DNA of 64,000 nt from assembly GCF_029855045.1 (NCBI RefSeq), contig NZ_CP123228.1:6448001-6512000 (forward strand), given 5' to 3'. The stretch is from Piscinibacter sp. XHJ-5. GTDB taxonomy: Bacteria; Pseudomonadota; Gammaproteobacteria; Burkholderiales; Burkholderiaceae_C. Under the pieces are notes generated by a model, which had not been told where the DNA came from, ran no database searches, and saw nothing but the letters and a program-made list of their open reading frames with translations. The number at the start of each line of letters is the position of its first letter. Within the stretch, counting starts at the first letter, position 1. Made by a program: the position numbers and the translations under genes. Shown here piece after piece: positions 4,064 to 36,056 of this stretch.

Positions 4064-4447
4064 TCAAGCGGCGGATGCTGGACTGGCCCCGAGCGAGTAG
4101 GACGCCATGCACTGCGCGAAAAGGCCAGTCGGCAGCTTTCCGTTGCGGGCGACATGGGTGAGTGAGCTCGTGCAGACACGCTCCTGATAGCCGCCAACTG
4201 CAGTAATGACGTAGCGGCGCTCCCCACCCCGGTACCTGACTAGGCGGCCTGGCAGCTGCGACATCAGCGACAGCATGGCCGGGTGACGGGCGCGCAGGAA
4301 ATCCTCCATCGTCGCGCCCCAGGCATCGAGCATTGCCGCAGTTCGCTGTTGGCGAGATCGTCCGCTACTTGGACGACGCGATCTCGAAGACTTCAGTTCA
4401 AGCAGTTTCCTGAGTCCGAAACGCGGACCGTCCGGCATCGTCGACAA
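4064..4447 (-). CDS. Possible small hypothetical protein downstream of the HerA-like ATPase gene
   Basis: This open frame of 127 residues begins with TTG at 4447, or ATG at 4438, about 30 bases after the stop of the 1834-residue ATPase gene on the same strand. The C-terminal half, with segments such as RRYVITAVGGYQERV, looks protein-like. The N-terminal third is arginine/serine-rich low complexity and could be spurious. I recognise no family. If real it would be the last gene of the MADS-like operon. Confidence 0.3.
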   Translation of the reverse strand: MSTMPDGPRFGLRKLLELKSSRSRRPSSGRSRQQRTAAMLDAWGATMEDFLRARHPAMLSLMSQLPGRLVRYRGGERRYVITAVGGYQERVCTSSLTHVARNGKLPTGLFAQCMASYSLGASPASAA

Positions 4448-4474: not shown

Positions 4475-7400
4475 TCATCGAATCGTCGCGCCGTCAACAG
4501 CCGTTTTCGTGCCACCACCGTGCTGCGTGAATCGCGGCCGAATGGTCACCTTCTGCGGTCGGAGGGCAAATCGCTTGTCTGTACTTCGCTGCGCCCACAC
4601 GAGCGCTTCGCCAGGTTGAAGTGACGTGACTGCTCCGTCCGGAACGTCTTCTAGCGCGGCAAGCGCGCTGCGGAGGTGTTTGAGCCACTGCGGTGAAGTC
4701 ATGCGATGCATGATGAGCACCGACGTTAGTTCGATGATTGCCCTTGGCACAGACAGTGGGTCTTGACTTGCAATGATCACGCTGGTTGCCTGGTGGCGCA
4801 TCTCGCGGATCGTCTCTACAACTTGAGAGATCAGGTCCGACTCCGAGATGTATTTGTGGGCCTCATCAAACACCACGAGCTTGTTGAACTCGCGACCGTT
4901 GTGACGGCTAGCGGCGAATATGCGAAGCATGACAACGAATAGGCCGAGCGCCTCGTCCTTTTCGATCCACTCGTCGCGCAAGTCCACGATGACGGTCCGC
5001 CCAGGTCGTAGTAGAGCACCCAAACGTCGACTGTCGTCGACATAAGGCGCAGCGAGCGCGAGCCGATCCTCGGCGAGTCGCAGCGCCGCAGTAGTTAGTC
5101 CGGCCTGCTGGATTTCCTGGCGAAACATGTCGAGGGTCAAACCGTCCCTGTGGCGACGCATGATGGCCACCAACTGTCTGATGTAGAGCGATTCGTTGCC
5201 GTACGCCCCGAGCAGAAACTTCCAGCTCTCTGCCCCAAGTTCGGACGAACTGAACTTGATCGGCTCCACTGCAAGACCAGGGTAGTCGCGTCGACGCGAC
5301 TCGACCTTTGATTCAGGTGCGAGGAGCACAACGTCCTCTAGCCCCTTGGGACGTGCGCCGTACTCAGCGAGGAGTCGATCCACCTCCGAGGTCTTTCTGT
5401 TAGGTGCTACGGCGGTGACGTATTCCGGCTCGTAGGCGTCACTCTTGTGGAAATGAAAGATCACCGTTGCCAGCGGCGACGGGAGTACGTTAATGCCGGT
5501 GTTCTGCATCGACGCCATTTCCGCGATGACACCCATGGTGTAGCTCTTGCCAAAGCCCTGGACCCCGAACAGAGAAATCGTATTGCAGCCGTTGAGATCA
5601 ATCGCGACCGACTGCGACCCTGAGCGGCCAAGCACGCCGTATTGCGGCGTCAGGGTCATAGCACCGAGCAGGACATCCGGTACAAATGGCGGAACCTCGA
5701 CTCGCGCCCCCTCGTTCGAATCGTTCCGGTCGGCGTGTGGCTCTGCGAGCTTGGGCGTGACTGTGGAATCAGGCGCGACTCCTGCCTCTAGCGAAGCTGT
5801 CGGGGATTTCGTCACAGCGCTGCCCGGCACTGCGGCCGAAGTCACGCTTGTGGGCGACGAAGTGCTTGGCTGTGCCACAACTGCCAGCGCCGATGCTGGT
5901 CCTGTCATTGCGACCCCAAGGTTGGGTGTGCGCGCGAGGCGTGCAGGTGGAACCGAGAGATTGGCACGCAGCGCCTCCAGAAGACGCTCCTCACCAGCCG
6001 CGTCGGCCATCGCAAGAATGCCTCGCTCAATTCTCGAAGGCGCGGAAGATTCGAGATCTCCGCGAACAGAAGAACGCTCGTTGTGGCGGCCCATCGCAGC
6101 GTGGAATAGCCTTCTTGCCTTGTCCGCTCCGAAGCGATGCACGCTGAACCCCGGCTCATCTTCATCAAGGTGGTGACCGGCACCAAGACGCTCGAACACA
6201 ATGCCCATTCGCTGAACGTCGAGTCGGTATCCCTCGTCGAGACGTTCAGCGACAGCTAGGGCCGCATCGCCATCCGGCGGAGGGAGCAGGCCATAGCGCA
6301 CTGCGCGACGAATGTAGAAGGACAGTACACCCGAAAGCTCTTTGGCACGGAGCGCAAGATCGGCGCGAGGCAGGACATAGAGCTCGGGATCGAACAGCCC
6401 CCTTAGTCGCTCCTCAGTGGTATCTGTCTGCTCACGCATCGCCCGGTAGAGAGGGCCACGCGCCGACGATGCCAGTTCATCGCGAAGCTTGACCTCGATC
6501 ACGTCCATGCGCACGACACCATTCCCGGGGAAGCCCACCAGCAACAGGTCAGCTCGGCGCTGAGGGCCAGGACCCATGAACCAGGAACGATGGGCATCGA
6601 GCGGCAAGACAATGCGGTTGTCCAGTGCGCCGATCTCCTCCATCAACCAACGGGCGAACAGCAGGCCAACGACCTCCTTTGCTCGGGTGGATGAGCCTTC
6701 AAGCCTCAGGGCAAGTCTGCCGGACAGCGAGCGAAGGCTGTCCAGAACCATCACTTGGTCGCCAGGGCGCAGATTAATTCCGTACCCGCTGAGCATAGGG
6801 GACAGGACGCCTTCGATTTCCTGGGTGTTCCGCGTGGTCAGAACGATCCGTTGTCGCTCCTCCTGCAAGAACTCGGGCGCGAAATCGAGGAGGTACCCGG
6901 CCTCTTCCCCGGCTGACGGCGTGTCAAAGAAGTCGACACCGAGGTGCCTGTCGATGGTGATCACGCGATCGCTAACCTCGTGCACTTGGCGCAGTAGGCC
7001 CCGAGCCTCGGCATCGAGCTGAAGAGCGAGTACTGGGCCGACCTGGGGCCCAACTGCCTGGCCAAGGGCAACGGCCGCATGCAGTCTGTGCGTTGCGACG
7101 AGAACGTCAGCAATCAGGTTCTCCATCGGTTCTGCGACCGTGCGGGTCGCGGGACGAACGCCCTTGGACCATCCGGTTGTTTGCTGACCAAGAGGATCCG
7201 AACTGTCGAGTGGCACGGTCTCCGGCTCCTGCACGAGCCCACCGACGAATGAGCCGCGCCGGTACTGGTTAAGCAGTCCGACGCGTCCGAGAGCCGTGAA
7301 CTGCTCAACCAGAATCGAAAGGTGCGCCGGGAAACGAGCGTGATCAGACAAGAAGTCCGCCACGTCGTTACGAGCGACAAGTAGTTTCGGGTGAAGGTTG

Positions 7401-9979
7401 TTGCCACTGTCGAGCGTGAACTCGTCATCTTCTCCGACGTGGCGCTCTGGGTCGAGCAGGCTCTCTACTGCCTCACCCACGGAATCGAGCTGGCCAGGCG
7501 GGGCGAAGAGATGCACGGCATATCGCAAAGTCGAAGGCGATCGGTGCTCCCTGCGCAGCGCTTCGACGCCGCGAAGCACATCGGCAACGAGTTCTCCGTT
7601 GCCGGGGTTGAATACATTTAGGCGCAGCTGGTCGACGTACGGGTGCTGCACGACAAACTCGAATAGCCGGCCCGAAATGTCGTCAGGATTGACCGTAGTG
7701 ACAGCGACGGAGCGAGCCCGGACGCCCATGCTGGCCAAGGCCCGGTCTCTTGCAGCCGTGGCGTCGACGTGCCGCCCGTCCTGATCACGGTCCGGAAGAT
7801 ACAGCCCCCAGAAAGGGGTAATTGGAAGCGCTTCGGTATATGCGCGCGCGCGCCGATCGAACAGCGCCATCGGTAGATTCATGGGGAGCAACTCGTCTCG
7901 AAGTTGCTCAATGAATCGGCGCCAATCAGGAGCCTGATGCGTTCGGCGGTCCCACGCTTCAATCGCGTTTGCGCATTCTGCGGTGTGCCGAAGGTGCCAC
8001 AACATGCGCAGGGGATGTGTCGGCGACAGAAGGATGCCCCGACCCGGGTCGCCCGGTTGGCTACGCCAACGCAGCTCCACTGCATCGAGCCACGCGATAC
8101 CGCGGAGGAGCGCAGTTCGCTGGGTGGCTTCGAGTTCCATCGCCTCCCGCACCAAGTCGGCGAACGCTTGCGCGTAAGCGGTGATCGCGTCAGCGTGGGC
8201 TGCAAGATCCACCACTTCGACGGTCCCGAGGCGAGCCGCCCGCTCCTCGGGCATCGCCCCTGGCGGAAGGTGTTGCTCCCGGATGCGGCGGAACACTTCC
8301 TCACGTGCCAATAGGAAGGCTTCGGCGCAAGGGATCCCGGCGAAGTCTGCTGGCTCTTTAAGTACTAGTTCCACGTCCCCAGGCGTCCGCGCCATACCGA
8401 GTGCCATCGAGTAGACACCGAGCGCGCGCGGGTTGTTGAGAAGGGCAACCTCAACCTTGCGCAGCAGACCGGGTACGACGACGGCGAAGCCGTGGAAGCC
8501 GTCGGTCTCAAGGTCAAAACGCAAATCCCCCTTGACTGAAGCACCGACAGGTTGGTTCCACGATCCGGTGAGACCACTGCGGGATGGAACTTGTTCGCGC
8601 GTCTGACCGTCGAGCGCTTTCAACGCTCCACGCAACCATACCGCGAGGAGCGATGGCGCAAAGGTCGCACGTACGTCCGGGTCATCGATGACCACCTCTT
8701 CACGTACTACCAGGAAGGGCTCGGACTCGTTCTCGGCGCGCGAAGTCTCATCCTTAGGCTCAATGCGTCGGGGCGTGGTGAGCAGCGCGCCTTCGGCGTC
8801 ATAGGCATCAACCCGGAGGAAGTAGGTGCCTTCATCCAGGCTCTCCAGATCTTTAACTTTTATTGACCGACGTACCTTCGCAAGGCGTCCGCCCGCTGGC
8901 TTGGGGTAACTATTGCTTTCCCAGGCGACGGTTGCTCCTTCCCCGCCTATGGCGAGAAGCTGGATGCGCCAGTGCTTCCATGCGGGCGCCTGCGCCGGCG
9001 CCGGGACGGAACGAAATACCAGCTTGAGCGGGTCGCGGCCGGTGACGTTCAGTACGGGCATTTGGTCAGCCCCCGCAACGTCGTCTGCGAGTTGACGCGG
9101 CAGGTTGAGCGGGTCGAGCACGATGCGCAATTCGCTATCGTCTTCGGCGTCCGCGAACTCCCAGCGATCGAAGGACAGATTGCCGCCCAGCGCATCACAT
9201 GCGACTACTCGTCCCCACACGCGGGGCTCCTCCGTATGCCGAACACGGAAGAAGTGAAACAGCGGCTGCTGTAGGGTCTCAGGCTTCAAACCGATCGATC
9301 GGAGACGCTTCTGAAGCGGTTGATTCACGTCGGACAGCTTGTCGCATTTCTGCCGATTGCGGCTGATCCAATTTAGCGTAGTGGCCGTGCCGCGAGTGAA
9401 GAGGGAAAAATCTGGTACGAGGCCGAACAAGTAGATAGCCCCACCCGCTGCCTCCCGCGTGGCGCCGTTCTTAATGACTGTGAGAAGGTAGTCCACCTGC
9501 TCATCGGCGTTCCGAATTTGACGGACCTCAGCCAGGTGCTTCAGCACCTCGCGCACTTCTCCGCGAAGTGGCTCATCCAGCCGCCCCAGCAAAACGTCGG
9601 AGAGGCTCTGCGCCATCGACGCCAGCGACAGCTCAGTGAACGTTGCGATGTCAAGCGAGTCTTCAGACGCCGTGCGGGGTCCCGGCGGAAAGAACACGAG
9701 GACCGGGGCCTCGGCATGATCACGGAGCCGGATGATCGTGGCTGCGGTCGCCTCGTGCGCCTTACTCGGCTGTTCGTTGAGTACGCGCACGATCCATCGG
9801 TGGTCAACGAGTGCTACTGCCAGCCGCTCCATCACGGGCTCTGGCAGCGTAGTTACTCGGAGGCGGTGACCGGGACCTGCTGCCTCCAGCACCTCGCGTA
9901 GCTTGGGTGCTAGCTGTTCCGACAACGCATCGTACTGGTCCTCTGCAGAGGCAGGAACGAGAGGAAGGCGCTCTGTCAC
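4475..9979 (-). CDS. Giant HerA/FtsK-like ATPase with embedded nuclease-like motif (MAD8/DptH-like)
   Basis: This 1834-residue protein is the last firm gene of the five-gene defence operon. The C-terminal ~400 residues form a HerA/FtsK-type ATPase: Walker A GVQGFGKSYTMG near residue 1473 and Walker B KLVVFDEAHKYI near 1703, followed by ATSVIIASQDP like a HerA sensor region. In the middle, near residues 1144-1163, RRADLLLVGFPG leads into RMDVIEVKLRDE, a D...E-x-K pattern typical of PD-(D/E)XK nucleases. An Ala/Thr/Ser/Pro-rich linker of roughly 90 residues separates the two modules. The layout resembles DptH/DndH and, as I recall, MAD8 of the methylation-associated defence system. It starts with GTG overlapping the upstream stop (GTGA). 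With no HsdR in the cluster, this is a plausible effector or translocase. Confidence 0.8.
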   Translation of the reverse strand: MTERLPLVPASAEDQYDALSEQLAPKLREVLEAAGPGHRLRVTTLPEPVMERLAVALVDHRWIVRVLNEQPSKAHEATAATIIRLRDHAEAPVLVFFPPGPRTASEDSLDIATFTELSLASMAQSLSDVLLGRLDEPLRGEVREVLKHLAEVRQIRNADEQVDYLLTVIKNGATREAAGGAIYLFGLVPDFSLFTRGTATTLNWISRNRQKCDKLSDVNQPLQKRLRSIGLKPETLQQPLFHFFRVRHTEEPRVWGRVVACDALGGNLSFDRWEFADAEDDSELRIVLDPLNLPRQLADDVAGADQMPVLNVTGRDPLKLVFRSVPAPAQAPAWKHWRIQLLAIGGEGATVAWESNSYPKPAGGRLAKVRRSIKVKDLESLDEGTYFLRVDAYDAEGALLTTPRRIEPKDETSRAENESEPFLVVREEVVIDDPDVRATFAPSLLAVWLRGALKALDGQTREQVPSRSGLTGSWNQPVGASVKGDLRFDLETDGFHGFAVVVPGLLRKVEVALLNNPRALGVYSMALGMARTPGDVELVLKEPADFAGIPCAEAFLLAREEVFRRIREQHLPPGAMPEERAARLGTVEVVDLAAHADAITAYAQAFADLVREAMELEATQRTALLRGIAWLDAVELRWRSQPGDPGRGILLSPTHPLRMLWHLRHTAECANAIEAWDRRTHQAPDWRRFIEQLRDELLPMNLPMALFDRRARAYTEALPITPFWGLYLPDRDQDGRHVDATAARDRALASMGVRARSVAVTTVNPDDISGRLFEFVVQHPYVDQLRLNVFNPGNGELVADVLRGVEALRREHRSPSTLRYAVHLFAPPGQLDSVGEAVESLLDPERHVGEDDEFTLDSGNNLHPKLLVARNDVADFLSDHARFPAHLSILVEQFTALGRVGLLNQYRRGSFVGGLVQEPETVPLDSSDPLGQQTTGWSKGVRPATRTVAEPMENLIADVLVATHRLHAAVALGQAVGPQVGPVLALQLDAEARGLLRQVHEVSDRVITIDRHLGVDFFDTPSAGEEAGYLLDFAPEFLQEERQRIVLTTRNTQEIEGVLSPMLSGYGINLRPGDQVMVLDSLRSLSGRLALRLEGSSTRAKEVVGLLFARWLMEEIGALDNRIVLPLDAHRSWFMGPGPQRRADLLLVGFPGNGVVRMDVIEVKLRDELASSARGPLYRAMREQTDTTEERLRGLFDPELYVLPRADLALRAKELSGVLSFYIRRAVRYGLLPPPDGDAALAVAERLDEGYRLDVQRMGIVFERLGAGHHLDEDEPGFSVHRFGADKARRLFHAAMGRHNERSSVRGDLESSAPSRIERGILAMADAAGEERLLEALRANLSVPPARLARTPNLGVAMTGPASALAVVAQPSTSSPTSVTSAAVPGSAVTKSPTASLEAGVAPDSTVTPKLAEPHADRNDSNEGARVEVPPFVPDVLLGAMTLTPQYGVLGRSGSQSVAIDLNGCNTISLFGVQGFGKSYTMGVIAEMASMQNTGINVLPSPLATVIFHFHKSDAYEPEYVTAVAPNRKTSEVDRLLAEYGARPKGLEDVVLLAPESKVESRRRDYPGLAVEPIKFSSSELGAESWKFLLGAYGNESLYIRQLVAIMRRHRDGLTLDMFRQEIQQAGLTTAALRLAEDRLALAAPYVDDSRRLGALLRPGRTVIVDLRDEWIEKDEALGLFVVMLRIFAASRHNGREFNKLVVFDEAHKYISESDLISQVVETIREMRHQATSVIIASQDPLSVPRAIIELTSVLIMHRMTSPQWLKHLRSALAALEDVPDGAVTSLQPGEALVWAQRSTDKRFALRPQKVTIRPRFTQHGGGTKTAVDGATIR

Positions 9980-11583
9980 GACGCGGTTTCCTCAACCCGA
10001 AGTTCATAGCGGGGACGGATTGTCTGTGCGTTGTAGGCATCGGACAGGTCGTCATAGAAACCGATCTCCCTTAGCCGATCCTTCAATGCGCGAACGTTTT
10101 CTCGAAAGGCCCGATGCTCGTCAACGGAGACCGGCTTGCGACCAGCACTCGTCACACCGGGTGCGATCACAAATCCGTAACGTTGCTCCACCCAGATCAG
10201 GAAGTCCTCAATGAGAATGGGCTCAGTCTCGAACTGGCGGCCGGCCGGCGTGTCCTTCGCCCTTAGAACGGCCAGTTGCACCAACACTTCGAGGGTTCGA
10301 CCACCAAGGTGCCAGCGCCGGGGATTCACCTTTGATTTTCCTTGCACCAGAACCCCAAAAGGCGAGTTCTTCTGGAACAGTTTGTCGAGCATCTGTACGA
10401 GGTACTTGATGTGGTGAGCCTGCCGAACATGGGTGACCAGCTCGATGAGCGTGTCGAAGGAAGACAGGCCAGCATTGAGGATGGCGTCGATCTCCGGAGC
10501 CAGGGTCCCGTCCTCCTCATTCAGACTGCGAATCTGCTTGAGTGCCGCCTTGAAATCAGCCTCGAACTCCGGAGACGGAGTAGCCAGCAACGACGGCACC
10601 TCAAATGGGTCGTCCGTGATGTGCTCCTCCCGGGCATAACGGAGGAGCTGGTTCATCGCGAACACGGACTTGACCAAATCGCCGAGCTTCGCGTACTCCG
10701 ACGCGGCGTCTTCCTGCGCGAGCTGAGCCATGCGGCTCCGGTAGTCGCCCCCCATGTCGGTCGTAAAGGTGACCTGGTACGGGCATGCAGCAAATGGGTC
10801 CGCGTTGTTGCCATAGACAGGGCAGGATCGACATGTCGGATGGGAGCCGCAGTCGCGGATCCAACCTGCGAGCTGCCGCCCAATGCGTAGCGTGTACGTC
10901 CCTAGGTGCAACCCCAAGATCGCCCTCAGGTAGTCGATCATTACGGGTCGAGGAACGTCCTTGTAGGACAAGATTCGTTCGATGTCGTCGCAGAGAACAC
11001 GGGATTGGCCGCGGCACAACGGCGGATAGGGCGTGATCTTCTCCCCTGAGGGGTGTGTATCGCTCACACCTTCGACCAGCTTCAGGACGGTCAACGTTTC
11101 CAAATCGAGCCGCACGCCCGCCTGATACTGCCGACCTCGTTCCAGGTATGCCTTTAGCTCTCTGTGGGCGTTGCCCTCGCCATGTTCCAGCATGGCATAG
11201 AGCGCATCGGCAAAGTTGTAGTCCCGACAATACTTCGCCACCCGAATCTTGTGGGCATCCAAGTGGAGCGGTCGCAGCGAGGCGATGGCTTCGGTAGGTC
11301 TTCCCCGATTCACGAGGTCGAACACATCGGTCTCCAACCACTGCCTGGCGATTTCCTCGTTCTCAAGGAAGCCGGTGACGCCGGGCAAGCCCGCCAAGCG
11401 TTTGAAATGAACATCAACCTTTTCAAACTCTGCCTTCTGGCGACCAATGGTCGCAGGCCGCATCCCCCCAGTCTTGAGCCAGAGAAAGAGCACAACCAGC
11501 ACACGGTCGAGGTCTACGTTCTTTGGATCCGCGTAGAAGATTCGCGGGTTGCGAAACTCCTGGTCTTGTTTGCGGAGCTTCAT
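9976..11583 (-). CDS. MAD7-like defence-operon protein with a four-cysteine cluster
   Basis: This is a 535-residue soluble protein overlapping its neighbours by 4 bases on each side. I cannot assign a named domain. Near residues 239-262 it has C-x5-C-x2-C-x10-C (DCGSHPTCRSCP ... AACP), which could bind zinc or an iron-sulfur cluster. The rest is helical, and the C-terminus includes a WVEQRYGFVIAPG segment. Its position between the kinase and the HerA-like ATPase matches what I recall as MAD7 of MADS. By position it could also be compared with DptG of phosphorothioation-linked restriction. The role is probably structural or sensing within the complex, which is inference. Confidence 0.75.
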   Translation of the reverse strand: MKLRKQDQEFRNPRIFYADPKNVDLDRVLVVLFLWLKTGGMRPATIGRQKAEFEKVDVHFKRLAGLPGVTGFLENEEIARQWLETDVFDLVNRGRPTEAIASLRPLHLDAHKIRVAKYCRDYNFADALYAMLEHGEGNAHRELKAYLERGRQYQAGVRLDLETLTVLKLVEGVSDTHPSGEKITPYPPLCRGQSRVLCDDIERILSYKDVPRPVMIDYLRAILGLHLGTYTLRIGRQLAGWIRDCGSHPTCRSCPVYGNNADPFAACPYQVTFTTDMGGDYRSRMAQLAQEDAASEYAKLGDLVKSVFAMNQLLRYAREEHITDDPFEVPSLLATPSPEFEADFKAALKQIRSLNEEDGTLAPEIDAILNAGLSSFDTLIELVTHVRQAHHIKYLVQMLDKLFQKNSPFGVLVQGKSKVNPRRWHLGGRTLEVLVQLAVLRAKDTPAGRQFETEPILIEDFLIWVEQRYGFVIAPGVTSAGRKPVSVDEHRAFRENVRALKDRLREIGFYDDLSDAYNAQTIRPRYELRVEETAS

Positions 11584-14500
11584 GCACCCTCCGAAGGCCC
11601 AACGGCCTCTATGCCTTGACGCGCCAACACCAACCGTATCCCCTCTGGACGGCTCTCCGCCGAAACCTCGAAGAACTGCTCGTCGTCAGCGGAAAGAAGC
11701 ACGCGGTCGAACGTGGTTGTAATGAGTTCATTGCGGAATATGAGGAGGCTGACGAACAACCCTTGAAGGTCGGCTGCGGTAGGCCTATAGCCATGACGAA
11801 TCAGTTCCATCATCTCCAATAAGTCGAGCGATATGCGCAGGCGGGCTGGACCTTCCGTCGAAACCAACTCGACAGCGTCGGGCGAGAACTCCAAGAAGTC
11901 CCCGTGGGCGGGACGGGAAACCTCAATTCGAAACCGATCCTTTGGGAACAAGCGGTATGAGCGAATCGAGGCAGTGGCGACTCGTGAGACCCGCAATGCA
12001 AGGTAGTTGCGTCGCAGCAGCGGGTTTCGAACACCTTCGGCGACACTCACGGCCTCAACGACGCGGTCGCGGAGATCGTTGCACGCCGTGGCACGCTCGC
12101 CATCGGTGGTGGCCACGATCACGGCCTCTAGCAATCCCACGGAGGTATAGGGCAGCATATCGCGCCATCCGTTGTCGCGCCGCTCGTAGTAGGCCCAACG
12201 ACGAAGCACGGCCGCGAGCTGGCGCCTTGCCTCGACCACGGTGGGGAAAGGCACATCATCGCTGGGGCGTGGAACTTCGGCGGCATACCGCCTGAGCTGG
12301 GCTGCTGCGACTTCGGACCGGCCATCGAAGGTCATCCAAGGCACGGCGCCATCTACGTTGTGGTCAAGCTGCCGGTCGAGCATCGGGTGATTTACCCGAC
12401 CCACGTCTGCTTCGCGGAGTCGCCGCACAAGGCGGTCAACCGCGCGGTCGGGCCCTGGCGTGAGGACAGGTAGTCGCGCGGCAGTATTCGGATCAGCGAA
12501 AGCCTCGGTGTAGTAGAGGGCGACCAAAGGCGCAGAACCGTGTAGGTCTGCGTTGTGGAGCAACGCCTTCACATCGGCGCACCCGTGGTCCCGCAGAAGA
12601 AGCCAAGAGAGCGCAGAGCGCAGATCGCGCATGGTCACATGGGCCCGGCGCCGCAGATGTACCACCTCGAACAGCCGCCGCACGCGTTCTCTCACAGCTG
12701 ACCCGGAGTTCGGGTCCCGAAGCGTGTTCGCGTTATGGAGGAGCGGACACGATGCCCGAATCGAACATCCCTCGCATGGAGCCCACAGCTCAGGTTGCAG
12801 AAGCTGCATGAGCTGCTGCTCGACGAGGGAGGTAATACCGCCGGCGGTCACCGCGCGCAGGTTCAGGTTGACCAGCAGCGCACCCTCGGCCGGCGAACCT
12901 CCGGCAAGGGACGCGTTCACGAAGCGACGGAGCCCACCATAGGCGCTAGCGCGAGGACCGTGTGCAAGGAAGTCCAGTAACCGGCCCTCGTTGATTGCGA
13001 TGAGACGCACTGCCGGCCCAGCGAGTCCAGCCATCTCCTCACCCTCGAAGGGCTTGAGGAATGCGTCGAGGACGGCATCGTTGGAGCGATCTTCCTCATC
13101 CTGCGAGCCGTCGTAGTTTGTCTCGTAACTCCGGTCTTCCCAGGTCCAGCTGGAGCCATTCTTGCTGGGTAGTCGCGTGACCAGTGCGCCGTTCTGGCTG
13201 AACAAAGCTTCGACCTGCTGGAGGAATGCGGTCTTGCCGTCACCTGCGTTGCCTGTGACGATCACAAGGCGATGGCAGCCTGTAGTGATGGTTGGAGCCA
13301 GCTTCTCGTCGAGGCCCGTGCGGACGTAAGTGAGCCGGGCGATCTCATCCAGGCCGCGGGTCCCGCTGTTCGTGCGCCGCGCCTGGCTGTAAAGCGTGAG
13401 CATCCGCGTGACATACGGGTTGTAGTCCTTTCGTCCGACCTCTTCGGGTTCGAGTCGGATGCCGGGGAACGTGTCGGTAGATAGGGCGGGTCGCTTGGCC
13501 GGGGCAAGCATCGACTGCACAGCAACCAGTGCGGTGCGCATCTCGGACGCGGATTGGAAGCGGCGTGCGGCGTACGGTTGTACTGCCTTCAGCAAGAACT
13601 CTGCAAGATCGCTTGAGAGATGCACTTTCACTGCGATCTGGCGGGGGTCATACGGTGTGCCACCTTCGGGCCGGTCTTGGGGAAACGGATGCCGGTGCAC
13701 GACCAATTCGTAGAGGACTATGCCGAGGGAGAACAGGTCGGCGTGCGCACCCCAACCAACGGTCGTCACGTCAGGTGCCCAATACCGGCGAGTGCCGGCC
13801 TTGCCTTTGGCTTCGCTTGCCATCGCCGCGATATTGAAGTCGATCAACTTGGGCCTGTGCGAGGGAAGCTCCAGCATCACGTTCGGTGGCTTGATATCGC
13901 GGTGGTAGACCCCGTTGCCATGCAGTGCCTCCAAGGCATCAAGCAGTTGGACGCCGATGGCCTTGATGTCGGACCACGCCAACCGGCGCTCGCCTGCGCA
14001 GTACGGCTCAAGCGTTTCACCTTTCACGAACTCCGACACGATGTAGGGATAGTCGAGCGGCGGGCTGAGTCGAGCCATCCACACGATTCGGACGATGTTC
14101 GGGTGGGTCGGCAGGAGAGGCTGAACGCGAGTGAACTCGTGCACCGCCAGATCGGCGTTCTCGGTGTCCACCAGCACCTTCAGTGCATAGGTGCGTTGGT
14201 GATCCAGATTGAACACCCGGTAAACCTTCGCGAAAGTGCCTTTGCCGATCTCCTCATCAAGGCGCCATACCCCATCAAGGACCACACCGACCTCAAGCTT
14301 CGCGGGGCCTGGCGCGGATGGTTGCGACGGTTCTTTGCGGCCGAGACCCGTGGTCATGCCGAGTACGCTGCGCAGGCGAGCAAGCGAGTCAGTAGCGGTA
14401 GGCCGGGATCTGAAGTCGTCGGTTCTAAGCAAATCGAGTACAAGCTCGTCGATGCTTGTCTCCACGCCTGCACGTACTTCAGAGGGAAGCTTTGGTGGGC

Positions 14501-15743
14501 AACCACCTGCAGCACGCGCCGCATCTGGGCCATCGAAGGGCAGTTCGTCGGTGAGGAGCTGGTAGAGCAAGACGCCGAACGAGTACATGTCCGAAGTCGT
14601 GTCGAAATCGTAGTTCGACGCATCGGCCAGTTCGGGCGGTAGATAGGCCCTGTTGGTCCGTCCCTGGGTGTCGGGGAAGACAGTGCGTCCCGACTCCATA
14701 TAGGCTCGATCGAAGTCGGTGAGGCGCGGCTTGCGGTCGAAACCTACTAGGACCGTGCCCGGGCACACGTTGCGATGGACGATGCCAGCGGCGTGGACGA
14801 CTTCGAGGGCGGCGGCGACACCCTCCGCGATTTCCAACCGCTCACGGACAGTAAGCTGGTCCCGCTCCGTGTTGGTCAGAAAGCCGTGCAGCGATCCATA
14901 TTCGGACCAGTCGGTGACTTCGAAAAATTCGTTGTCCTCGTCGATATAGTCGAACTGAAGCACGGGAAGCAGGTTTGGATGCCGACCAATTCGCGCGACA
15001 GCCTCGGTCGGGCGCCGCACTACCGCTTTGCGCTGCTCCACTTCCTCATGGCTACCGTACGGAATCTTCCACGTGCGAACACGATAACGCGAAGGATCAC
15101 CCTCAACGTACGCGCGACGAGCGACATACATCGCCTCGTCTGGTCCGACCTGGAGAGTCTCAACGATCTCGTAGCTGCCGACACGCCGCCGGTTCTGCCG
15201 TTGACGCGCTGCCCATTTTCCTTGGAGCGCGTTCTCCATCGAGGGGAACAGCGGTGTCAGGTCTTCACCAGCTCGGTGCGAGGGCACATTGCGCGCATCT
15301 TGCAGCCAGACCGCTAAGTCGCCGAGGTTAACAAGCGAACCCTTCCACGAACCGCCCACATGTAAGGCCGTGCCGTCTGGGACAACGAGCACCGGTGCTA
15401 CGTGGGCATGACTCGCGAGTGCGCCCAGTTCGGTCTTGAGGACCTTGCACTTGTGGTTCACAGTCCACATCGGACAACGCTTCGGAGTGTGGTTGAGCAG
15501 CCACTCCTGGTCGTCGCCCGAGAGTCGCCCGTACCATTCCTTTGCCTCAATCACGAACAAGGCGTGTGCCGCAAGGAGCACGATGTCGTACTCCAAGGCG
15601 TCTTGGCCGCGCTGCTTCAGCTGGAAGTTCGGAGCCAGCCCCCAGGTGCGTGGCAGTGCTTTGCGCAGTACCTCAAGAACGTCGCGCTCGAAGGGTCCAA
15701 CGGGGCCATCGCCGCCAGAGGGCGTGTAAATTATTCGAGCCAT
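11580..15743 (-). CDS. NERD domain - pseudokinase - Ser/Thr kinase - P-loop NTPase fusion (MAD6-like)
   Basis: This 1387-residue protein has four recognisable parts. Residues ~15-130 are a NERD nuclease-related domain with D53, E66 and K68 (EYDIVLL ... FVIEAKEW). Residues ~190-460 are a first kinase fold whose catalytic loop reads HRNVCPGTV and whose DFG reads DFD, so it lacks the catalytic Asp and is probably a pseudokinase. Residues ~495-760 are a second kinase with GKGTFAKV, YALKV, HRDIKPPNV and DFN. Near residue 833 a Walker A, GNAGDGKT, starts a C-terminal P-loop NTPase of ~550 residues, perhaps STAND-like. It contains a Cys cluster CEGCSIRASCP. The start overlaps the specificity gene by 13 bases. 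The protein likely senses or transmits the infection signal by phosphorylation; that role is inferred from the protein-kinase component of MADS. Confidence 0.85.
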   Translation of the reverse strand: MARIIYTPSGGDGPVGPFERDVLEVLRKALPRTWGLAPNFQLKQRGQDALEYDIVLLAAHALFVIEAKEWYGRLSGDDQEWLLNHTPKRCPMWTVNHKCKVLKTELGALASHAHVAPVLVVPDGTALHVGGSWKGSLVNLGDLAVWLQDARNVPSHRAGEDLTPLFPSMENALQGKWAARQRQNRRRVGSYEIVETLQVGPDEAMYVARRAYVEGDPSRYRVRTWKIPYGSHEEVEQRKAVVRRPTEAVARIGRHPNLLPVLQFDYIDEDNEFFEVTDWSEYGSLHGFLTNTERDQLTVRERLEIAEGVAAALEVVHAAGIVHRNVCPGTVLVGFDRKPRLTDFDRAYMESGRTVFPDTQGRTNRAYLPPELADASNYDFDTTSDMYSFGVLLYQLLTDELPFDGPDAARAAGGCPPKLPSEVRAGVETSIDELVLDLLRTDDFRSRPTATDSLARLRSVLGMTTGLGRKEPSQPSAPGPAKLEVGVVLDGVWRLDEEIGKGTFAKVYRVFNLDHQRTYALKVLVDTENADLAVHEFTRVQPLLPTHPNIVRIVWMARLSPPLDYPYIVSEFVKGETLEPYCAGERRLAWSDIKAIGVQLLDALEALHGNGVYHRDIKPPNVMLELPSHRPKLIDFNIAAMASEAKGKAGTRRYWAPDVTTVGWGAHADLFSLGIVLYELVVHRHPFPQDRPEGGTPYDPRQIAVKVHLSSDLAEFLLKAVQPYAARRFQSASEMRTALVAVQSMLAPAKRPALSTDTFPGIRLEPEEVGRKDYNPYVTRMLTLYSQARRTNSGTRGLDEIARLTYVRTGLDEKLAPTITTGCHRLVIVTGNAGDGKTAFLQQVEALFSQNGALVTRLPSKNGSSWTWEDRSYETNYDGSQDEEDRSNDAVLDAFLKPFEGEEMAGLAGPAVRLIAINEGRLLDFLAHGPRASAYGGLRRFVNASLAGGSPAEGALLVNLNLRAVTAGGITSLVEQQLMQLLQPELWAPCEGCSIRASCPLLHNANTLRDPNSGSAVRERVRRLFEVVHLRRRAHVTMRDLRSALSWLLLRDHGCADVKALLHNADLHGSAPLVALYYTEAFADPNTAARLPVLTPGPDRAVDRLVRRLREADVGRVNHPMLDRQLDHNVDGAVPWMTFDGRSEVAAAQLRRYAAEVPRPSDDVPFPTVVEARRQLAAVLRRWAYYERRDNGWRDMLPYTSVGLLEAVIVATTDGERATACNDLRDRVVEAVSVAEGVRNPLLRRNYLALRVSRVATASIRSYRLFPKDRFRIEVSRPAHGDFLEFSPDAVELVSTEGPARLRISLDLLEMMELIRHGYRPTAADLQGLFVSLLIFRNELITTTFDRVLLSADDEQFFEVSAESRPEGIRLVLARQGIEAVGPSEGA

Positions 15744-17113
15744 TGGGGCACAACCTCCTGCTCGATGATTCGGAGCGCCTCCGTCTCAGCGTGTTCGGCT
15801 TTGACGCGAGCGTCAAAGGCGCTTCTGACGAGTTCCGAGACATCTCGTTCCACATCTGTTGGCCAGTCTGGCACGGGCAAAGCGCGCAGCATGTCCTCTC
15901 GCAGACTTAGTATTTTTGTTCCGACCGCGGTTGTTCGGAGGAGTCGAAACCCAACAGTCGTAGTGAGGTAGGCGTAGAGGGCATGTGCTTTGGACGCCTT
16001 TGGGACCACACGAAGCAGGTCTTGGGTAAACGCGGCCTGAGAGTAGCGCCCATGAACGAGGACCGCCCGCCCAAAAACTTCGCCTTCCCCAAGAGTGCCG
16101 TGCCCTCCCACCAAAATGGTCCCCTCTCTCGCAAATAGCAGTCGGTCGTCGAAGCCAGGATGAACAATCTGACGTGGCGCCGGCCGGATCAACATTGCGT
16201 CGCGCTGCGACATAAACTCCACCCCGAATGGGGGTCGGCACTCCACTCGTGCGAAACGCGGCCCGTTGTAGATGCCACCTTGTTCCACAAGATCCCCGAG
16301 CGTGGACTTCCACTTAGTACGTAGGTGTCGCAGGGCGCCGCCGGAGGAGGCAAAATTCCACGCTACTAAAGACGGAAATGGTCCGCTCCACATGATCGAG
16401 TGGCGCCGAAGCGCGCCGCACATCTCATGTGCTTGCTGCATCTCAGGAAGCTGTTCGACCAGCGTTCTCGCTCGCCGAATGTCACGCAGAAATGTTTCCC
16501 TGCCTTCGCTGCAACTTCTCACAAGCGACGCAATCTTCCCTACAACGGATGAGTGCGCAAGAGGAATTGGAAGTGAACCGAGCAGGTCCTTTCGGAGACC
16601 GAGAATCTTGGTTCCATAGCTTGTCGAGCGAATGGCCTGAATGCCTGTCGGGCAAGCCAGCCAAGCGTACGTGAATAGAGAGAAGTCATCGTCTGGAGCC
16701 TCAAACTGCAGGGCCATGGCGTGCGGACCGACGTACTTGCCTACGAGGCGACCATCGGCGAGGATTGATCGTCCGAATAGCTCGTTCTCACCGAGCGTTC
16801 CTGCACCTGAGATGAGCACCTGACCTCGGGTAACGATATGCCGCTCGGGGTGATGCATTGAGTCCAAGCGGATGATTCGTCCGGTGGGCTCGGCCGCAAA
16901 CATGTCACCTTGCGTGATCAGCTCAACGCCGTGATTCGAATCACAGTCGCGTCGGGTGAAAACCGTCCCGTAGGCCCGACCAAATTCTTTAACGATGGAA
17001 CTGAGAGGGCGAGCCGAGTTTGAACCAGCGCGCCGAATTCGCTCCACGGCTGGCGAGTAGTTCAAGGCCCGCAACGCGCCGACACTTGGTTCGTCGACAA
17101 CGAAGGTCTTCAC
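15731..17113 (-). CDS. Type I-like restriction-modification specificity subunit (HsdS family, MAD5-like)
   Basis: This 460-residue protein should choose the DNA site methylated by its partner methyltransferase. It has the internal duplication of HsdS proteins: two target-recognition halves, each ending in a similar phrase (STSYGTKILGLRKDLLGSLPIP in the first, TAVGTKILSLREDMLRALPVP in the second), joined and followed by helical spacers. The GTG start overlaps the methyltransferase stop by 4 bases, showing tight coupling. No hsdR motor-nuclease gene accompanies it, unlike classical type I systems. The target sequence cannot be read from the protein. Confidence 0.85.
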   Translation of the reverse strand: MKTFVVDEPSVGALRALNYSPAVERIRRAGSNSARPLSSIVKEFGRAYGTVFTRRDCDSNHGVELITQGDMFAAEPTGRIIRLDSMHHPERHIVTRGQVLISGAGTLGENELFGRSILADGRLVGKYVGPHAMALQFEAPDDDFSLFTYAWLACPTGIQAIRSTSYGTKILGLRKDLLGSLPIPLAHSSVVGKIASLVRSCSEGRETFLRDIRRARTLVEQLPEMQQAHEMCGALRRHSIMWSGPFPSLVAWNFASSGGALRHLRTKWKSTLGDLVEQGGIYNGPRFARVECRPPFGVEFMSQRDAMLIRPAPRQIVHPGFDDRLLFAREGTILVGGHGTLGEGEVFGRAVLVHGRYSQAAFTQDLLRVVPKASKAHALYAYLTTTVGFRLLRTTAVGTKILSLREDMLRALPVPDWPTDVERDVSELVRSAFDARVKAEHAETEALRIIEQEVVPQWLE

Positions 17114-19221
17114 TTGAATCGCCCCTCGGCGACGAGACGGCGGTATTCCTCGGCGATCAATGGTAGGTCGTCGGCAATACGCTTACCCTTGCGGAGACGC
17201 ACACGCTCGTGCACCTGACCATCACGTTCCCACCGGTCCGGCGTCTCTATTTCAAATAGGCTTTGGGAACCATCGGGCTCGCGCAAGTAGCTCGGCTCGC
17301 CTCGTCGCCCATGGCCGCAGTCTTCTGCGATCGCCATAAAGACCGGCCGCTGCTTCGGGCCGTGTTTCCCCACCATGCGAGTCTCGTTCGATGCGCGACG
17401 GCGCACGAACACGCAGCTTGCCTGCACGGCCACTTGGGGTAGGAATGTTTCTCCTGGCAAGTCGATGCTTGCAAGTAGCTCTCCGTTTCTGAGCAACCAG
17501 GTGCGGACGTACTCCATCTGCTCGCCGGGATTCCCAAGAATGCCGTTAGGTAGGACAAGCGCCATCACGCCCGTCCCGGGCTTCAGGAACTTGAGGCACG
17601 CCTCGATAAACAGAACTTCAGGCGGGACCTTTTTTTGAAGCGCGAACTTGACCCACTGGGTGCCCTCGCGGCGCCACGTGTGACCCAAGTCGTAGTGGCG
17701 AAGTACCTCTGGGTCTTCGACTGGAATCTTGGCTCCGAAGGGGGGATTCGTGAACACGTAGTCGAATTGACCGTGCGCCTCGCCGGGACCAACGCCCAAC
17801 TCTCGCTCCAGCATCTCCATTTCCGGCGTGCGATAGCGCGTGTTGCCGGGAGTCTCTCTAGCGCCGTATACGCCGTACTCCAGACTGTTGAAGTTTGAGA
17901 TATGGCCGTGACCGTCGCCGTTCATGACCATGTTCATTCGAGCAGCCTTGCGTAGGTCGCTATCAACATCGAACCCGAACAAGCTCTCCCGCGCGTAGCG
18001 CTTCACAAGCGGGTCAGCCTTCTTCGTTTCGCTAGGAACGGGATCCTCAGGGTGGGGGCAACCAATCTGGCGGAGAAACCGGCGCCGTGCGTGATTGAGC
18101 GCGACGATCAAGAAGCCACCGCTGCCACATGCCGGATCTAGCACGCGCCGACCAGGCTGTGGGTCAACCATCTCCACCATCATCCGAATGACATTGCGAG
18201 GCGTAAAGAACTGGCCTTTCTTTTGCTTCAGTGTGTGCGAGGTAATGGCCTCGAAGGCCATTCCTTTGGCGTCGGTGTCGGTAGAGAGTAAATCGAATCG
18301 CGCCAACTGAGCAGCGACATAGGCGAGGGCGCGATCGTTCGGCTCAAGCCGCTCGTAGCCATCGAACACATCTTTGAATGCGTCCTTGACGTGATCGAAC
18401 AACGTATGAATACGCTTGGCGATACGCTCTTGGCCCGCGGGCGTATTACGTTCGGTGGCGCCGACAAAGAACAAGCGCTTGCTTTGTTGCTCATCGAGGA
18501 TCTTCGCAAAGATGAGGTAAAGCAGTTGCCAGAACGCTTTCTCGTCGCGAAGTCCTTGCGTCGACAGATAGTCATGACAGTGATTGAACGCGCGCAGTAA
18601 TGAGTCGCCAGCAGCGACGCGTAGCGCGCGCCGGTCGGCATCGTTCAGGTCCTCCAAACTCTCGTCCGGCGCTGGGAAGTCCGTCAGCTCCGTCCCGACG
18701 GGAAATCCGGTCGCCGAATCGTACGTACGCATCCGGAAGGTCATATCTCTTCCGTTGGTCCACACACCGTATACCTCGGGGCGCTCGTCGCTAAGGTTGG
18801 AAAGGACTAGATCGAGCTGCTCCACCGAAGCGTCCGAAGCCTTCGCGTTTGCCTTGCCAATGAGAACGACTCGAATGATGTTGTCATCGTCATGCGGCTT
18901 GCCATGATCGTAGACAGCGATGGCAATCGTGGTGGTCTTCTTTTTTCCAGAGGCGTCACGACACGAGAGCGTCACTTCTCGCTCCATGTCTGAAAGCTCG
19001 ACACGATACTCGCGATGGAGCTGTTCAACGAGGCCCTGAAGTACACGCTCCTCGGGCTTGTCCGGGACTAGCTCGCCGGTGAGCGCGCAAACCAGAGTGT
19101 CAGGTGCAAGGAGTTCAGTGCTGTCCTCATCGCCACCACTGACGCTCGGCTCGTCGTTGTTCTCTTCGCTGGCAGCGGCAAAGTTCGCTTCATTGTCTTT
19201 AGGCTTGCGCTGTCGTGCCAA
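17110..19221 (-). CDS. N6-adenine DNA methyltransferase, HsdM-like (MAD2-like)
   Basis: This 703-residue methyltransferase transfers a methyl group from S-adenosylmethionine to adenine N6. The N-terminal half contains an HsdR-N/HsdM-like helical region. GQFFTPRNVIRMMVEM precedes motif I, VLDPACGSGGFLI (near residue 364), and the catalytic motif IV is TNPPFG near residue 491. Motif I before motif IV fits the gamma class of type I enzymes. Translation begins at a TTG (19221) with a well-placed GGAG seven bases upstream. It is the promoter-proximal gene of the operon, so self marking would be expressed first. In MADS-type systems the methylase protects host DNA. Confidence 0.9.
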   Translation of the reverse strand: MARQRKPKDNEANFAAASEENNDEPSVSGGDEDSTELLAPDTLVCALTGELVPDKPEERVLQGLVEQLHREYRVELSDMEREVTLSCRDASGKKKTTTIAIAVYDHGKPHDDDNIIRVVLIGKANAKASDASVEQLDLVLSNLSDERPEVYGVWTNGRDMTFRMRTYDSATGFPVGTELTDFPAPDESLEDLNDADRRALRVAAGDSLLRAFNHCHDYLSTQGLRDEKAFWQLLYLIFAKILDEQQSKRLFFVGATERNTPAGQERIAKRIHTLFDHVKDAFKDVFDGYERLEPNDRALAYVAAQLARFDLLSTDTDAKGMAFEAITSHTLKQKKGQFFTPRNVIRMMVEMVDPQPGRRVLDPACGSGGFLIVALNHARRRFLRQIGCPHPEDPVPSETKKADPLVKRYARESLFGFDVDSDLRKAARMNMVMNGDGHGHISNFNSLEYGVYGARETPGNTRYRTPEMEMLERELGVGPGEAHGQFDYVFTNPPFGAKIPVEDPEVLRHYDLGHTWRREGTQWVKFALQKKVPPEVLFIEACLKFLKPGTGVMALVLPNGILGNPGEQMEYVRTWLLRNGELLASIDLPGETFLPQVAVQASCVFVRRRASNETRMVGKHGPKQRPVFMAIAEDCGHGRRGEPSYLREPDGSQSLFEIETPDRWERDGQVHERVRLRKGKRIADDLPLIAEEYRRLVAEGRFK

Positions 19222-19396: not shown

Positions 19397-19789
19397 TCAA
19401 TGCCCATCCGAAGGCTCCCGTCGAGATTTCTTGGGCTTCCGATGCGTTGACTTGGGTAGCGTGCCCGCCTTCATGGAAGCTGATCTCAGCGGTTGAGCGG
19501 CGCGCACGCGTCCACGGATGTAGTTGGTGGCGTCGACTTCGAAGCGCGGATGGCCGAGCCGCTGCAACAGTACAGCTACGGTGGCGAGCGACGCGAACGT
19601 GCGTGCGTTGCCCCGCGCGCTTGCGAGCAAGGCTCTTCGTTCTCCAAATCGAATCTCCAGCACAAAGCCGCCTTGACCCCCCTGAGCCACCACGCCAGAC
19701 ACAACACGAGCAGCAATGAGCTCACGCAGCGGCGCCTCCTGCAAGAGCGCAACAGCTTGCTCCGTCGGCACGGTAGAGGGCAATGCCAC
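19397..19789 (-). CDS. ParC-family partition-associated protein
   Basis: This 130-residue protein resembles the small ParC-family partition-associated proteins found in betaproteobacterial plasmids and integrative elements. The similarity is an N-terminal PTEQAVALLQEAPLRELI region, a short beta-rich core, and the phrase HPRFEVDATNYIRGRVRAA, followed by a basic lysine/arginine-rich tail. The start is GTG at 19789 without a clear ribosome-binding site. No ParA or ParB partner is in view, so it is probably a relic or a host-interaction factor of the island. It lies on the same strand as the MADS-like operon, 175 bases upstream of the methyltransferase gene. Confidence 0.6.
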   Translation of the reverse strand: MALPSTVPTEQAVALLQEAPLRELIAARVVSGVVAQGGQGGFVLEIRFGERRALLASARGNARTFASLATVAVLLQRLGHPRFEVDATNYIRGRVRAAQPLRSASMKAGTLPKSTHRKPKKSRREPSDGH

Positions 19790-20377
19790 GTTTTGTGTGA
19801 CTTCGTTGATATGTGCGCGTTATTTTGCACTAGATCTGGAATGTTTCGTATAACAAATTATATAAAGTGTCTTACGGACGAGTGACTTCGTATGTCCGAT
19901 TTACATAACAAGCGCGAATGCCCAAGATCGCCGGATTGGCCGGCGCCCTATGCCTTGATGCCGGGATGATGCGGACGGGTCGTCTGAGGCTCCGGGAGCC
20001 GTTGATCTGCGTGCCGAGCCAGCACGTTGAAGCCGCCTCAGCGGCGGAAGAACTTGCCCCGCTCGGCGCGCACGTGCTTTGCCGTCCGGAATCAGGTTGA
20101 ACGGAGCCGAGACCGTCTTGAAGCAGCAGTTGTCCTCATCGTCGCAGCGAGGTGGCTCATTGCGTGAGCTACCTGCGCACCCCAGTCGAAGTGACCACCT
20201 GATCCGTGCAACGTCGGCGGCGGCCGTCGACCCAAAGCGCACAAATCCGACCATCGGCCTTGGCATCGGCGGCGCGATGACGGCGCTAGCCGCGACCCGG
20301 TTGGGCGAGAGGCGATAGGCGTTAGCGCTCGCTCACGACGCCCGCTTGAGGCGTTGTTCCACGATGTTCCAACTTGC
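19790..20377. other. Intergenic region with an AT-rich patch, no convincing gene
   Basis: This gap separates the ParC-like gene (minus) from the GTPase cassette (plus). Roughly 19805-19910 is strikingly AT-rich for this window. It includes a TATAAT on the minus strand (19862 to 19857) that could be a -10 element for the ParC/MADS-like side, but no good -35 is seen. The rest holds open frames of about 120 codons on the minus strand (for example 19901-20266), which are arginine/serine-rich and look spurious. A decayed gene cannot be excluded. Confidence 0.4.
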
Positions 20378-20406: not shown

Positions 20407-20444
20407 GCACCCGGTACAACATGGAACAACAAGGAGTGCAGATT

Positions 20445-22706: not shown

Positions 22707-22762
22707 ACGCAGAGCATTGAAGGGCAGAGACGACCGTCACCCGGAACAAGAGGAGATATCGA

Positions 22763-23968: not shown

Positions 23969-23996
23969 TCGAGGGTCAGCTGAGGAATCCGCCCAA

Positions 23997-33110: not shown

Positions 33111-36056
<2,946 letters not shown>

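Follow-up and report, generated by a model that had tools for sequence, protein, structure and literature searches.

The methylation-associated defence system (MADS), reportedly described by Maestri et al. in 2024, enters this study through the NCBIfam and PADLOC models of MAD1–MAD8 and their references. Its restriction mechanism is listed as unknown in a 2026 review (PMC12904381). SspABCD–SspFGH, a defence system based on single-strand phosphorothioate, loses its protection when sspF, sspG or sspH is deleted; SspFGH is harmful to unmarked cells, introduces damage into DNA without the modification and represses the replication of phages, and the same paper reports no significant sequence identity between SspFGH and DndFGH (PMC8092258). 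DndF may carry a NERD domain and an inactive and an active kinase before a P-loop domain whose Walker B contains Asn, and DndH comprises an inactive methylase, a restriction endonuclease and a HerA/FtsK motor captured from several sources (PMC10853773). The NERD–kinase–kinase point is made for both PglW and DndF in a BREX paper with two shared authors (PMC12839542). Here we analysed a five-gene operon in a 64,000-nucleotide (nt) stretch of Piscinibacter sp. XHJ-5 (contig NZ_CP123228.1, positions 6,448,001 to 6,512,000; hereafter the window), whose products correspond to MAD2, MAD5, MAD6, MAD7 and MAD8. We found that MAD6–MAD7–MAD8 match the SspFGH restriction module, and we consider it likely that Type-I-like adenine methylation marks self in this system while an SspFGH-like engine attacks unmarked DNA.

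The genes are as follows (aa, amino acids), given in the order of transcription:

Positions 17110..19221, minus strand: mad2-like gene for an N6-adenine DNA methyltransferase (703 aa; motifs DPACGSG and NPPF).
Positions 15731..17113, minus strand: mad5-like gene for a specificity subunit (460 aa; tandem target-recognition halves, residues 13–221 and 248–452).
Positions 11580..15743, minus strand: mad6-like gene (1387 aa; NERD nuclease domain, pseudokinase, kinase and SspF/DndF-like P-loop half).
Positions 9976..11583, minus strand: mad7-like gene (535 aa; SspG-like, predicted DNA-binding subunit).
Positions 4475..9979, minus strand: mad8-like gene (1834 aa; SspH-like, with a region that corresponds to the TRD/inactive-methylase part, a nuclease-type region and a HerA translocase).

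All five open reading frames (ORFs) are intact, with overlaps of 4, 13, 4 and 4 nt, exactly where a sequence-only reading of the window had placed them, and a purine-rich stretch resembling a ribosome-binding site precedes every start, as judged by eye. The gene order is the same in all four nearest relatives, namely those of Nannocystis (L002), Bradyrhizobium (L003), a metagenome-assembled genome of Planctomycetaceae (L004) and a contig from a viral collection (L042). With the starts in these relatives taken as those of the longest ORF, the 13-nt overlap between genes 2 and 3 is exact in 4/4, and the 4-nt overlap recurs in four relatives for genes 3/4, in three for genes 1/2 and in two for genes 4/5. 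Substitution counts against L002 and L042 gave nonsynonymous rates (dN) of 0.08–0.33 and synonymous rates (dS) of at least 1.5, the latter near saturation, for all five genes; hence these are under purifying selection. With gene order and 13-nt overlap shared by relatives and dN far below dS, the five-gene set is real and maintained, and not a product of chance. The MAD8 product in the protein database has 1785 aa, with a shorter start than that of the 1834-aa ORF.

The lead to the Ssp proteins was a weak PADLOC match of MAD7 to SspG (40 bits), which is also the only direct Ssp match among the PADLOC matches listed for the five proteins (for MAD6, the best 25 of 42). The MAD7 model found SspFGH operons in several genomes. 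PADLOC names all three proteins of the loci L026, L027 and L028 SspF, SspG and SspH with high scores, and in the two neighbourhoods scanned, SspB-C-D stands beside the L026 trio and SspA-B-C-D beside the L027 trio. We compared profiles of 15–16 MADS rows with profiles of 7–8 Ssp rows by HHalign, whose E-values here refer to a single comparison and not to a database. The C-terminal half of MAD6 matched SspF with a probability of 99.5% (E 1.5e-22), MAD7 matched SspG with 97.5% (E 5e-12), and MAD8 matched SspH with 98.6% (E 7e-16) over profile columns 598–1418. The controls were null: nine mismatched pairs gave at most 1.4%, and three reversed and 15 column-shuffled profiles at most 0.7%. Taken by domain, residues 600–1050 of MAD8 matched SspH at 96% and residues 1050–1330 at 95%. 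The alignments place GNAGDGKT of MAD6 on GTAGDGKT of SspF, with Asn in the Walker B strand of both families, and RADLLL...IEVK of MAD8 on IADILG...VESK of SspH, which superimposes the D...E-x-K residues. As judged from these profile alignments, the C-terminal half of MAD6, MAD7 and the middle of MAD8 are homologous, gene for gene, to SspF, SspG and SspH.

A further locus (L024 8907–20000, L055 2–11534) joins the MADS and SspFGH families within one operon. Its genes are ordered F-G-methyltransferase-S-H; the F protein (643 aa, without NERD or kinase by Pfam) matches PADLOC SspF at 97 bits, the G protein matches PADLOC mad7 at 97 bits and SspG at 27 bits and lies just above the NCBIfam MAD7 cut-off at 410.6 bits, and the H protein has 1755 aa. 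The match of MAD6–MAD7–MAD8 to the SspFGH restriction module is new here. No paper linking MADS to DndFGH or SspFGH was found in the literature searched, which did not cover the original MADS paper, where the link may be made; the word MADS is absent from the main text of PMC10853773, and MADS is not mentioned in PMC12839542. A PADLOC catch-all class is described as resembling genes of MADS, of phosphorothioate systems and of BREX (PMC13321033).

The sequence-only reading had identified MAD8 as a HerA-like ATPase. The motor is there, but a nuclease-type region ahead of it had been overlooked:

Positions 5990..6832, minus strand: predicted PD-(D/E)XK nuclease region of MAD8 (residues 1050–1330; motif, and alignment with SspH at 95%).
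Positions 4475..5662, minus strand: HerA-type ATPase domain of MAD8 (Walker A GVQGFGKS, Walker B VVFDEAH, and ASQDP).

A D...E-x-K pattern is typical of PD-(D/E)XK nucleases, and E1102, P1126-x-D1128-x-H1130, D1144, E1162-x-K1164 and Q1184 are invariant in 16/16 MAD8 rows. MAD8 is thus a predicted nuclease by motif and homology. HerA proteins are DNA motors, and the assignment of the C-terminal domain agrees with PADLOC HerA matches and with profile matches to solved HerA structures. The public MAD8 models cover opposite ends of the protein (NF047742, residues 37–231; PDLC04140, residues 1457–1828), and neither spans the nuclease region.

MAD6 had been described as a fusion of NERD and kinase domains, with which Pfam agrees (NERD and two kinase copies), but the P-loop domain in its C-terminal half had escaped notice:

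Positions 15381..15692, minus strand: NERD domain of MAD6 (residues 18–121; PF08378, E 1e-10; E51-x-D53...E66-x-K68).
Positions 14526..15014, minus strand: first kinase copy of MAD6, predicted inactive (Pfam; HRN instead of HRD).
Positions 13659..14261, minus strand: second kinase copy of MAD6, predicted active (PF00069; HRD, D616; DFN instead of DFG).
Positions 11580..13481, minus strand: SspF/DndF-like half of MAD6 (residues 755–1387; Walker A GNAGDGKT; IAINEGR with Asn at Walker B; Cys cluster).

All 15 rows keep the E-x-D and (D/E)-x-K motifs of the NERD domain, the catalytic Asp and DFN of the second kinase copy, and the Walker A sequence GNAGDGKT and the INEGR strand of the P-loop half, which are invariant. 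The first kinase copy has HRN in 12/15 rows and HRD in 3/15. A PP2C-type phosphatase gene lies directly behind mad8 in three Bacteroidota-type loci (L033 23118–23783 and L034 23016–23678 by Pfam, L044 17037–17729 by tblastn), which fits a kinase used in control.

The front of MAD6, with its NERD domain, pseudokinase and kinase, is shared with PglW of BREX type 2, and residues 17–746 match PglW (NF033442, 202 bits; PADLOC PglW, 208 bits). This raises the question of whether the locus is a BREX type 2 (Pgl)-like system with MAD6 as its PglW. However, 202 bits is far from the PglW cut-off of 990, the match covers only the N-terminal half of the profile (12–773 of 1391), and the C-terminal half of MAD6 differs from PglW in being SspF-like. 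Furthermore, no PglZ, BrxC or BrxL was found for the five genes among the PADLOC matches listed (for two of the five, the best 25) or in the 10 scanned neighbours. We give this explanation hardly any credence and rejected it, as only half of PglW matches.

For MAD2 and MAD5, the N6-adenine methyltransferase and the specificity subunit named in the sequence-only reading were borne out, the former by Pfam (N6 methylase PF02384, E 9e-29) and the latter, together with the HerA-like ATPase, by PADLOC. NPPF is kept in 15/15 MAD2 rows and motif I, DP(A/S)CG(S/T)G, in 14/15. MAD5 contains an internal repeat (31% over 213 aa, E 2e-26) and is the fastest-evolving of the five proteins; compared with two relatives, its halves show different divergence. 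Duplication, fast evolution and unequal divergence of the halves are all as in Type I S subunits. Plain Type I restriction-modification was rejected, as no HsdR was seen: consistent with the earlier claim that hsdR is missing, Pfam and PADLOC gave no HsdR match in the five genes or 10 neighbours, and the only trace of HSDR was a sub-threshold Pfam HSDR_N_2 match inside the methyltransferase.

The earlier assignment of the five genes to MAD2, 5, 6, 7 and 8 is also what NCBIfam gives, with a MADS model as the best match of each protein. MAD6 (NF047741, 535 bits; cut-off 460) and MAD7 (NF047733, 492 bits; cut-off 410) lie above the curated cut-offs, and MAD2 (NF047738, 640 bits; cut-off 720), MAD5 (NF047740, 289 bits; cut-off 400) and MAD8 (NF047742, 128 bits; cut-off 175) below them. 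PADLOC also matches mad2, mad5, mad6, mad7 and mad8 in the five genes (mad8, 106 bits); it ranks generic Type II models over mad2 (methyltransferase, 568 vs 201 bits) and over mad5 (S subunit, 126 vs 45 bits), and puts mad6 (247 bits) narrowly over the kinase of another system (239 bits). A better score to another named system, which by the earlier reading would refute its assignment, was thus obtained for mad2 and mad5 with generic PADLOC models but for none of the five proteins with NCBIfam. At E 0.01, Pfam gave nothing in MAD5, MAD7 or MAD8. The four cysteines by which MAD7 had been characterized are present (C-x5-C-x2-C-x12-C) but do not define the family, because the last three are absent in 5/15 rows and the first in more.

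The gene order mad2-mad5-mad6-mad7-mad8 on one strand is that of MADS, and the eight-gene locus L031, on a Piscinibacter plasmid, aligns with the five homologous proteins at ~30–35% identity (MAD5 over its first part only). L031 carries all eight mad genes in order, as found by models for MAD1, MAD3 and MAD4 and by BLAST for the other five. What sets the present genome apart is that it has no mad1, mad3 or mad4 match. The NCBIfam models of MAD1 and MAD4 (E limit 0.001) and MAD3 (E limit 1e-20) matched nothing in the whole 6.65-Mb genome, and PADLOC MAD4 also gave 0 matches there; all three NCBIfam models scored over cut-off in the positive control, L031. The observation that these genes are not seen in the window therefore holds genome-wide, and the missing mad genes turned up nowhere outside it. 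The NCBIfam MAD3 model was used because the PADLOC mad3 model, which we set aside, is a general ATPase model, with 256 matches in this genome and matches in all 14 control genomes; its best match here is a 992-aa frame (window 35091–36035), presumably UvrA by its size and place.

The same absence was seen in relatives. MAD4 had no match in the whole genomes of L002, L003 and L004 or in Hymenobacter and Bacteroides plasmids, and MAD3 had none over cut-off in the same set (weaker ATPase matches of at most 91 bits occurred in two). Among these, MAD1 exceeded its cut-off only in the L004 genome, on contig C39, with the MAD7 of the operon on C212. We then counted genes in a sample of 16 MAD6–MAD7–MAD8 loci collected through MAD7 (the window, L002–L004, L021, L022, L031–L034, L042–L044 and L049–L051). 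L005 (partial mad7 match on a short contig), L048 and L061 (too incomplete or too remote), L024/L055 (different gene order and no kinase, although its MAD7 passes the cut-off), L025 and L052–L054 (FGH-like, with MAD2 and MAD5 relatives absent from the stretch; all but L053 on short or cut contigs) and L026–L028 and L056–L060 (Ssp type or Ssp-like) were excluded; MAD7 of L052 is over the NCBIfam cut-off at 434.5 bits. A MAD2 relative was present in all 16 loci (as two ORFs in L034) and a MAD5 relative in 15, whereas MAD3 was found in three (L021, L022 and L031) and MAD4 in two (L022 and L031). By BLAST, a MAD1 relative flanks the operon in L031 and L049 and is separated from it by one gene in L022 (weak, 50 bits), and a weak relative lies 5 kb off the operon in L033. 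A second methyltransferase gene occurs in 2/16 loci (L043 and L051). MAD7 over cut-off is rare, with 4/398, 1/369, 4/282, 1/297 and 1/294 genomes in five samples, each of which includes the genome it was centred on.

The MAD2, MAD6 and MAD8 trees gave the same three groups, each with 100% ultrafast bootstrap: the window group (the window, L002, L003, L004 and L042), a Bacteroidota-type group, and a group with the eight-gene loci. In this sample, MAD3 is absent from two groups and present in 3/7 loci of the third. In the MAD7 tree (19 rows), two long rows meet, and gain and loss of MAD3 are not separated. In the MAD5 tree, members of two of these lineages are intermingled, a pattern that exchange of S subunits would produce. 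Members of the window group come from Myxococcota, Alphaproteobacteria and Planctomycetota, so the group has probably been transferred between hosts. We propose that MAD3–MAD4 and MAD1 are optional. Accordingly, of the earlier suggestion of a "minimal or divergent subtype", "divergent" is apt but "minimal" should be reworded: five genes are the usual core, and MAD3–MAD4 are the exception in the sample.

A degenerate MADS locus, which lost mad1, mad3 and mad4 and no longer works, would also lack these three genes and could account for the three proteins that score below the NCBIfam cut-offs. Decay was nevertheless rejected: all five frames are intact with their catalytic motifs kept, dN is far below dS, the same five genes with the 13-nt overlap occur in distant phyla, and MAD3 is confined to one of three lineages and to under half of the loci there. 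We regard degeneration as very unlikely. The five genes are a genuine, complete MADS-related lineage, which by a strict test is not a member of the eight-protein MADS family as modelled and which probably shares its core working mode.

Several observations weigh against our preferred reading, in which adenine methylation protects from an SspFGH-like engine. Three of the five proteins (MAD2, MAD5 and MAD8) remain under the curated MADS cut-offs. The N-terminal 600 residues of MAD8 and its HerA domain matched SspH at 14% and 7.8%, respectively, values that are above the shuffles and not secure. The Ssp loci were found via the MAD7 model, which makes the MAD7–SspG link partly circular, whereas F and H were not so selected. 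The MAD8 nuclease-region profile gave no match to PDB sequences, and Pfam searches of the 16 nuclease-region rows hit seven families with one member each, none of which was counted (the best was YycH, E 0.0004; PDDEXK_9 had E 0.07). Likewise, the MAD7 profile gave nothing significant in PDB (four unrelated sequences, E 0.08–0.2). The likeness to DndFGH rests on published description and not on DndFGH sequences. Finally, four FGH-like loci (L025 and L052–L054, three of them on short contigs) show neither a MAD2 nor a MAD5 relative over the stretch fetched; the F protein of L053 has NERD and kinase domains by Pfam.

These last loci also bear on the explanation that an ordinary Type I methyltransferase–S pair and an independently acting MAD6–MAD7–MAD8 module share the operon by happenstance. 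Such independence would suit the higher PADLOC scores of generic models over mad2 and mad5, and PMC10853773 describes the Dnd modification module as often uncoupled from DndFGH. However, MAD2 accompanies MAD6–MAD7–MAD8 in 16/16 and MAD5 in 15/16 of the loci found through MAD7, a count that leaves out the four FGH-like loci; the MAD2, MAD6 and MAD8 trees agree on three lineages; and the genes overlap. We consider two unconnected modules unlikely and retain the reading of one system in which the methyltransferase pair supplies the mark and the trio the attack.

Gene content, gene order, motifs, the homology of three subunits, selection and the absence of MAD1, MAD3 and MAD4 are observations, from which we infer every biochemical step of the following scheme. 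MAD2 and MAD5 would act together as a Type-I-like adenine methyltransferase that marks the host genome at a split site, chosen by its two recognition halves as HsdS-type halves do. MAD6, MAD7 and MAD8 would form a restriction complex built like SspF–SspG–SspH (and DndF–DndG–DndH as described), in which MAD7 would read DNA, the HerA motor of MAD8 would translocate it, the PD-(D/E)XK-type region would cut, and the P-loop half of MAD6 may serve as a nucleotide-binding sensor or assembly part. Because the trio is homologous to SspFGH, its presumed target is DNA lacking the MAD2–MAD5 methyl mark, which would be attacked so that its replication fails. The earlier conclusion that restriction must come from another component than HsdR was right, and we propose the SspFGH-like trio as that component. 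The front NERD nuclease and kinase of MAD6 may be a regulator or a back-up effector. MAD3–MAD4 (an ATPase and a Toprim-type protein) and MAD1 would be optional parts, the former pair an optional guard, as suggested by its patchy presence and by the listing of MADS among systems with an ABC ATPase–Toprim association (PMC12409363). The optional pair at other loci resembles the ATPase–Toprim pairs of PARIS/OLD type, and it is absent from this locus.

The resemblance to SspABCD–SspFGH lies in the three subunits, each of which matches its own partner only. The systems differ in the proposed self mark, which is adenine methylation by MAD2–MAD5 here and phosphorothioate in Ssp, in the extra NERD domain and two kinase copies of MAD6, and in the motor, which is HerA-type in MAD8, whereas NCBIfam scans of two SspH proteins gave FtsK matches. 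The 10 neighbours, to which this search was limited, contained no match to Ssp or Dnd modification genes. MAD6–MAD7–MAD8 have the same plan as DndFGH/DptFGH, compared by published description only, and among the MAD8 matches listed, 10/120 bear the JGI name "DNA phosphorothioation-dependent restriction protein DptH".

On balance, we lean towards the view that MADS, Ssp and probably Dnd share one F-G-H restriction engine, into which marking modules and front-end effectors are swapped. The engine would consist of a nucleotide-sensing P-loop protein, a DNA reader, and a nuclease with a HerA/FtsK motor, and would act on DNA without the self mark; the marks would be phosphorothioate or adenine methylation, and the front-end effectors NERD and kinases. 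The five-gene operon would then be the full methylation version, with MAD3–MAD4 as a PARIS-like guard in some lineages. If this is true, DNA marks of unrelated chemistry can block one and the same restriction engine. The SspFGH match predicts that MAD6–MAD7–MAD8 are toxic without MAD2–MAD5 and that the MAD8 residues named above are needed. The compact five-gene form, present in distant phyla, is the simplest material for testing MADS restriction, and software that calls the system only when all eight genes are found may overlook loci of this kind.

Some of the sampled loci showed variations of their own. Two successive mad2-type methyltransferase genes precede mad5 in L043 (256–4463) and L051 (2522–6642), both without mad3 and mad4, and the two mad2 ORFs of L034, a Phocaeicola plasmid, lie at 8417–10428. 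MAD6 of L050 (8035–12843) has 1602 aa, and its best match begins at reference residue 429, so its front end seems different. A gene for a Schlafen/AlbA_2-type protein is inserted between mad5 and mad6 in L044 (3898–5667), and a GmrSD-type restriction gene (L049 16045–18417) lies just upstream of a mad1-mad2-mad5-mad6-mad7-mad8 operon.

The operon resides on an island of low GC content (window 1–28000 and L029 15600–20000), with ~55–63% GC vs ~66–73% around. The start of the island adjoins an ssb gene, named by eye, and at one end two tyrosine recombinase genes stand in a row (window 11–1159 and L029 16309–18156 by Pfam, the latter just under the cut-off), with a long minus-strand ORF without a Pfam match between the two (L029 18161–19999). 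The only repeats found at the island ends were two 13-base direct matches. The small flanking ORFs at 4064–4447, 19397–19789 and 19901–20266, and the rest of the 10 window queries, had no relative in other loci longer than 9 kb and were therefore not counted as members. On the plus strand, three genes in a row at window 20421–24614 may be another defence cassette: the first encodes a 761-aa GTPase-like protein (MMR_HSR1, below cut-off), the second a 401-aa protein without a Pfam match and with a D...Q-A-K-like stretch near its start, and the third a 205-aa protein with a nucleotidyltransferase-like GS...D-x-D pattern, the last two features being read by eye. Next to the operon end, at window 1911–4033, lie two overlapping genes, the second of which matches DUF4365 and PADLOC "Aga_REase" models, a name that we take to mean Argonaute-associated.

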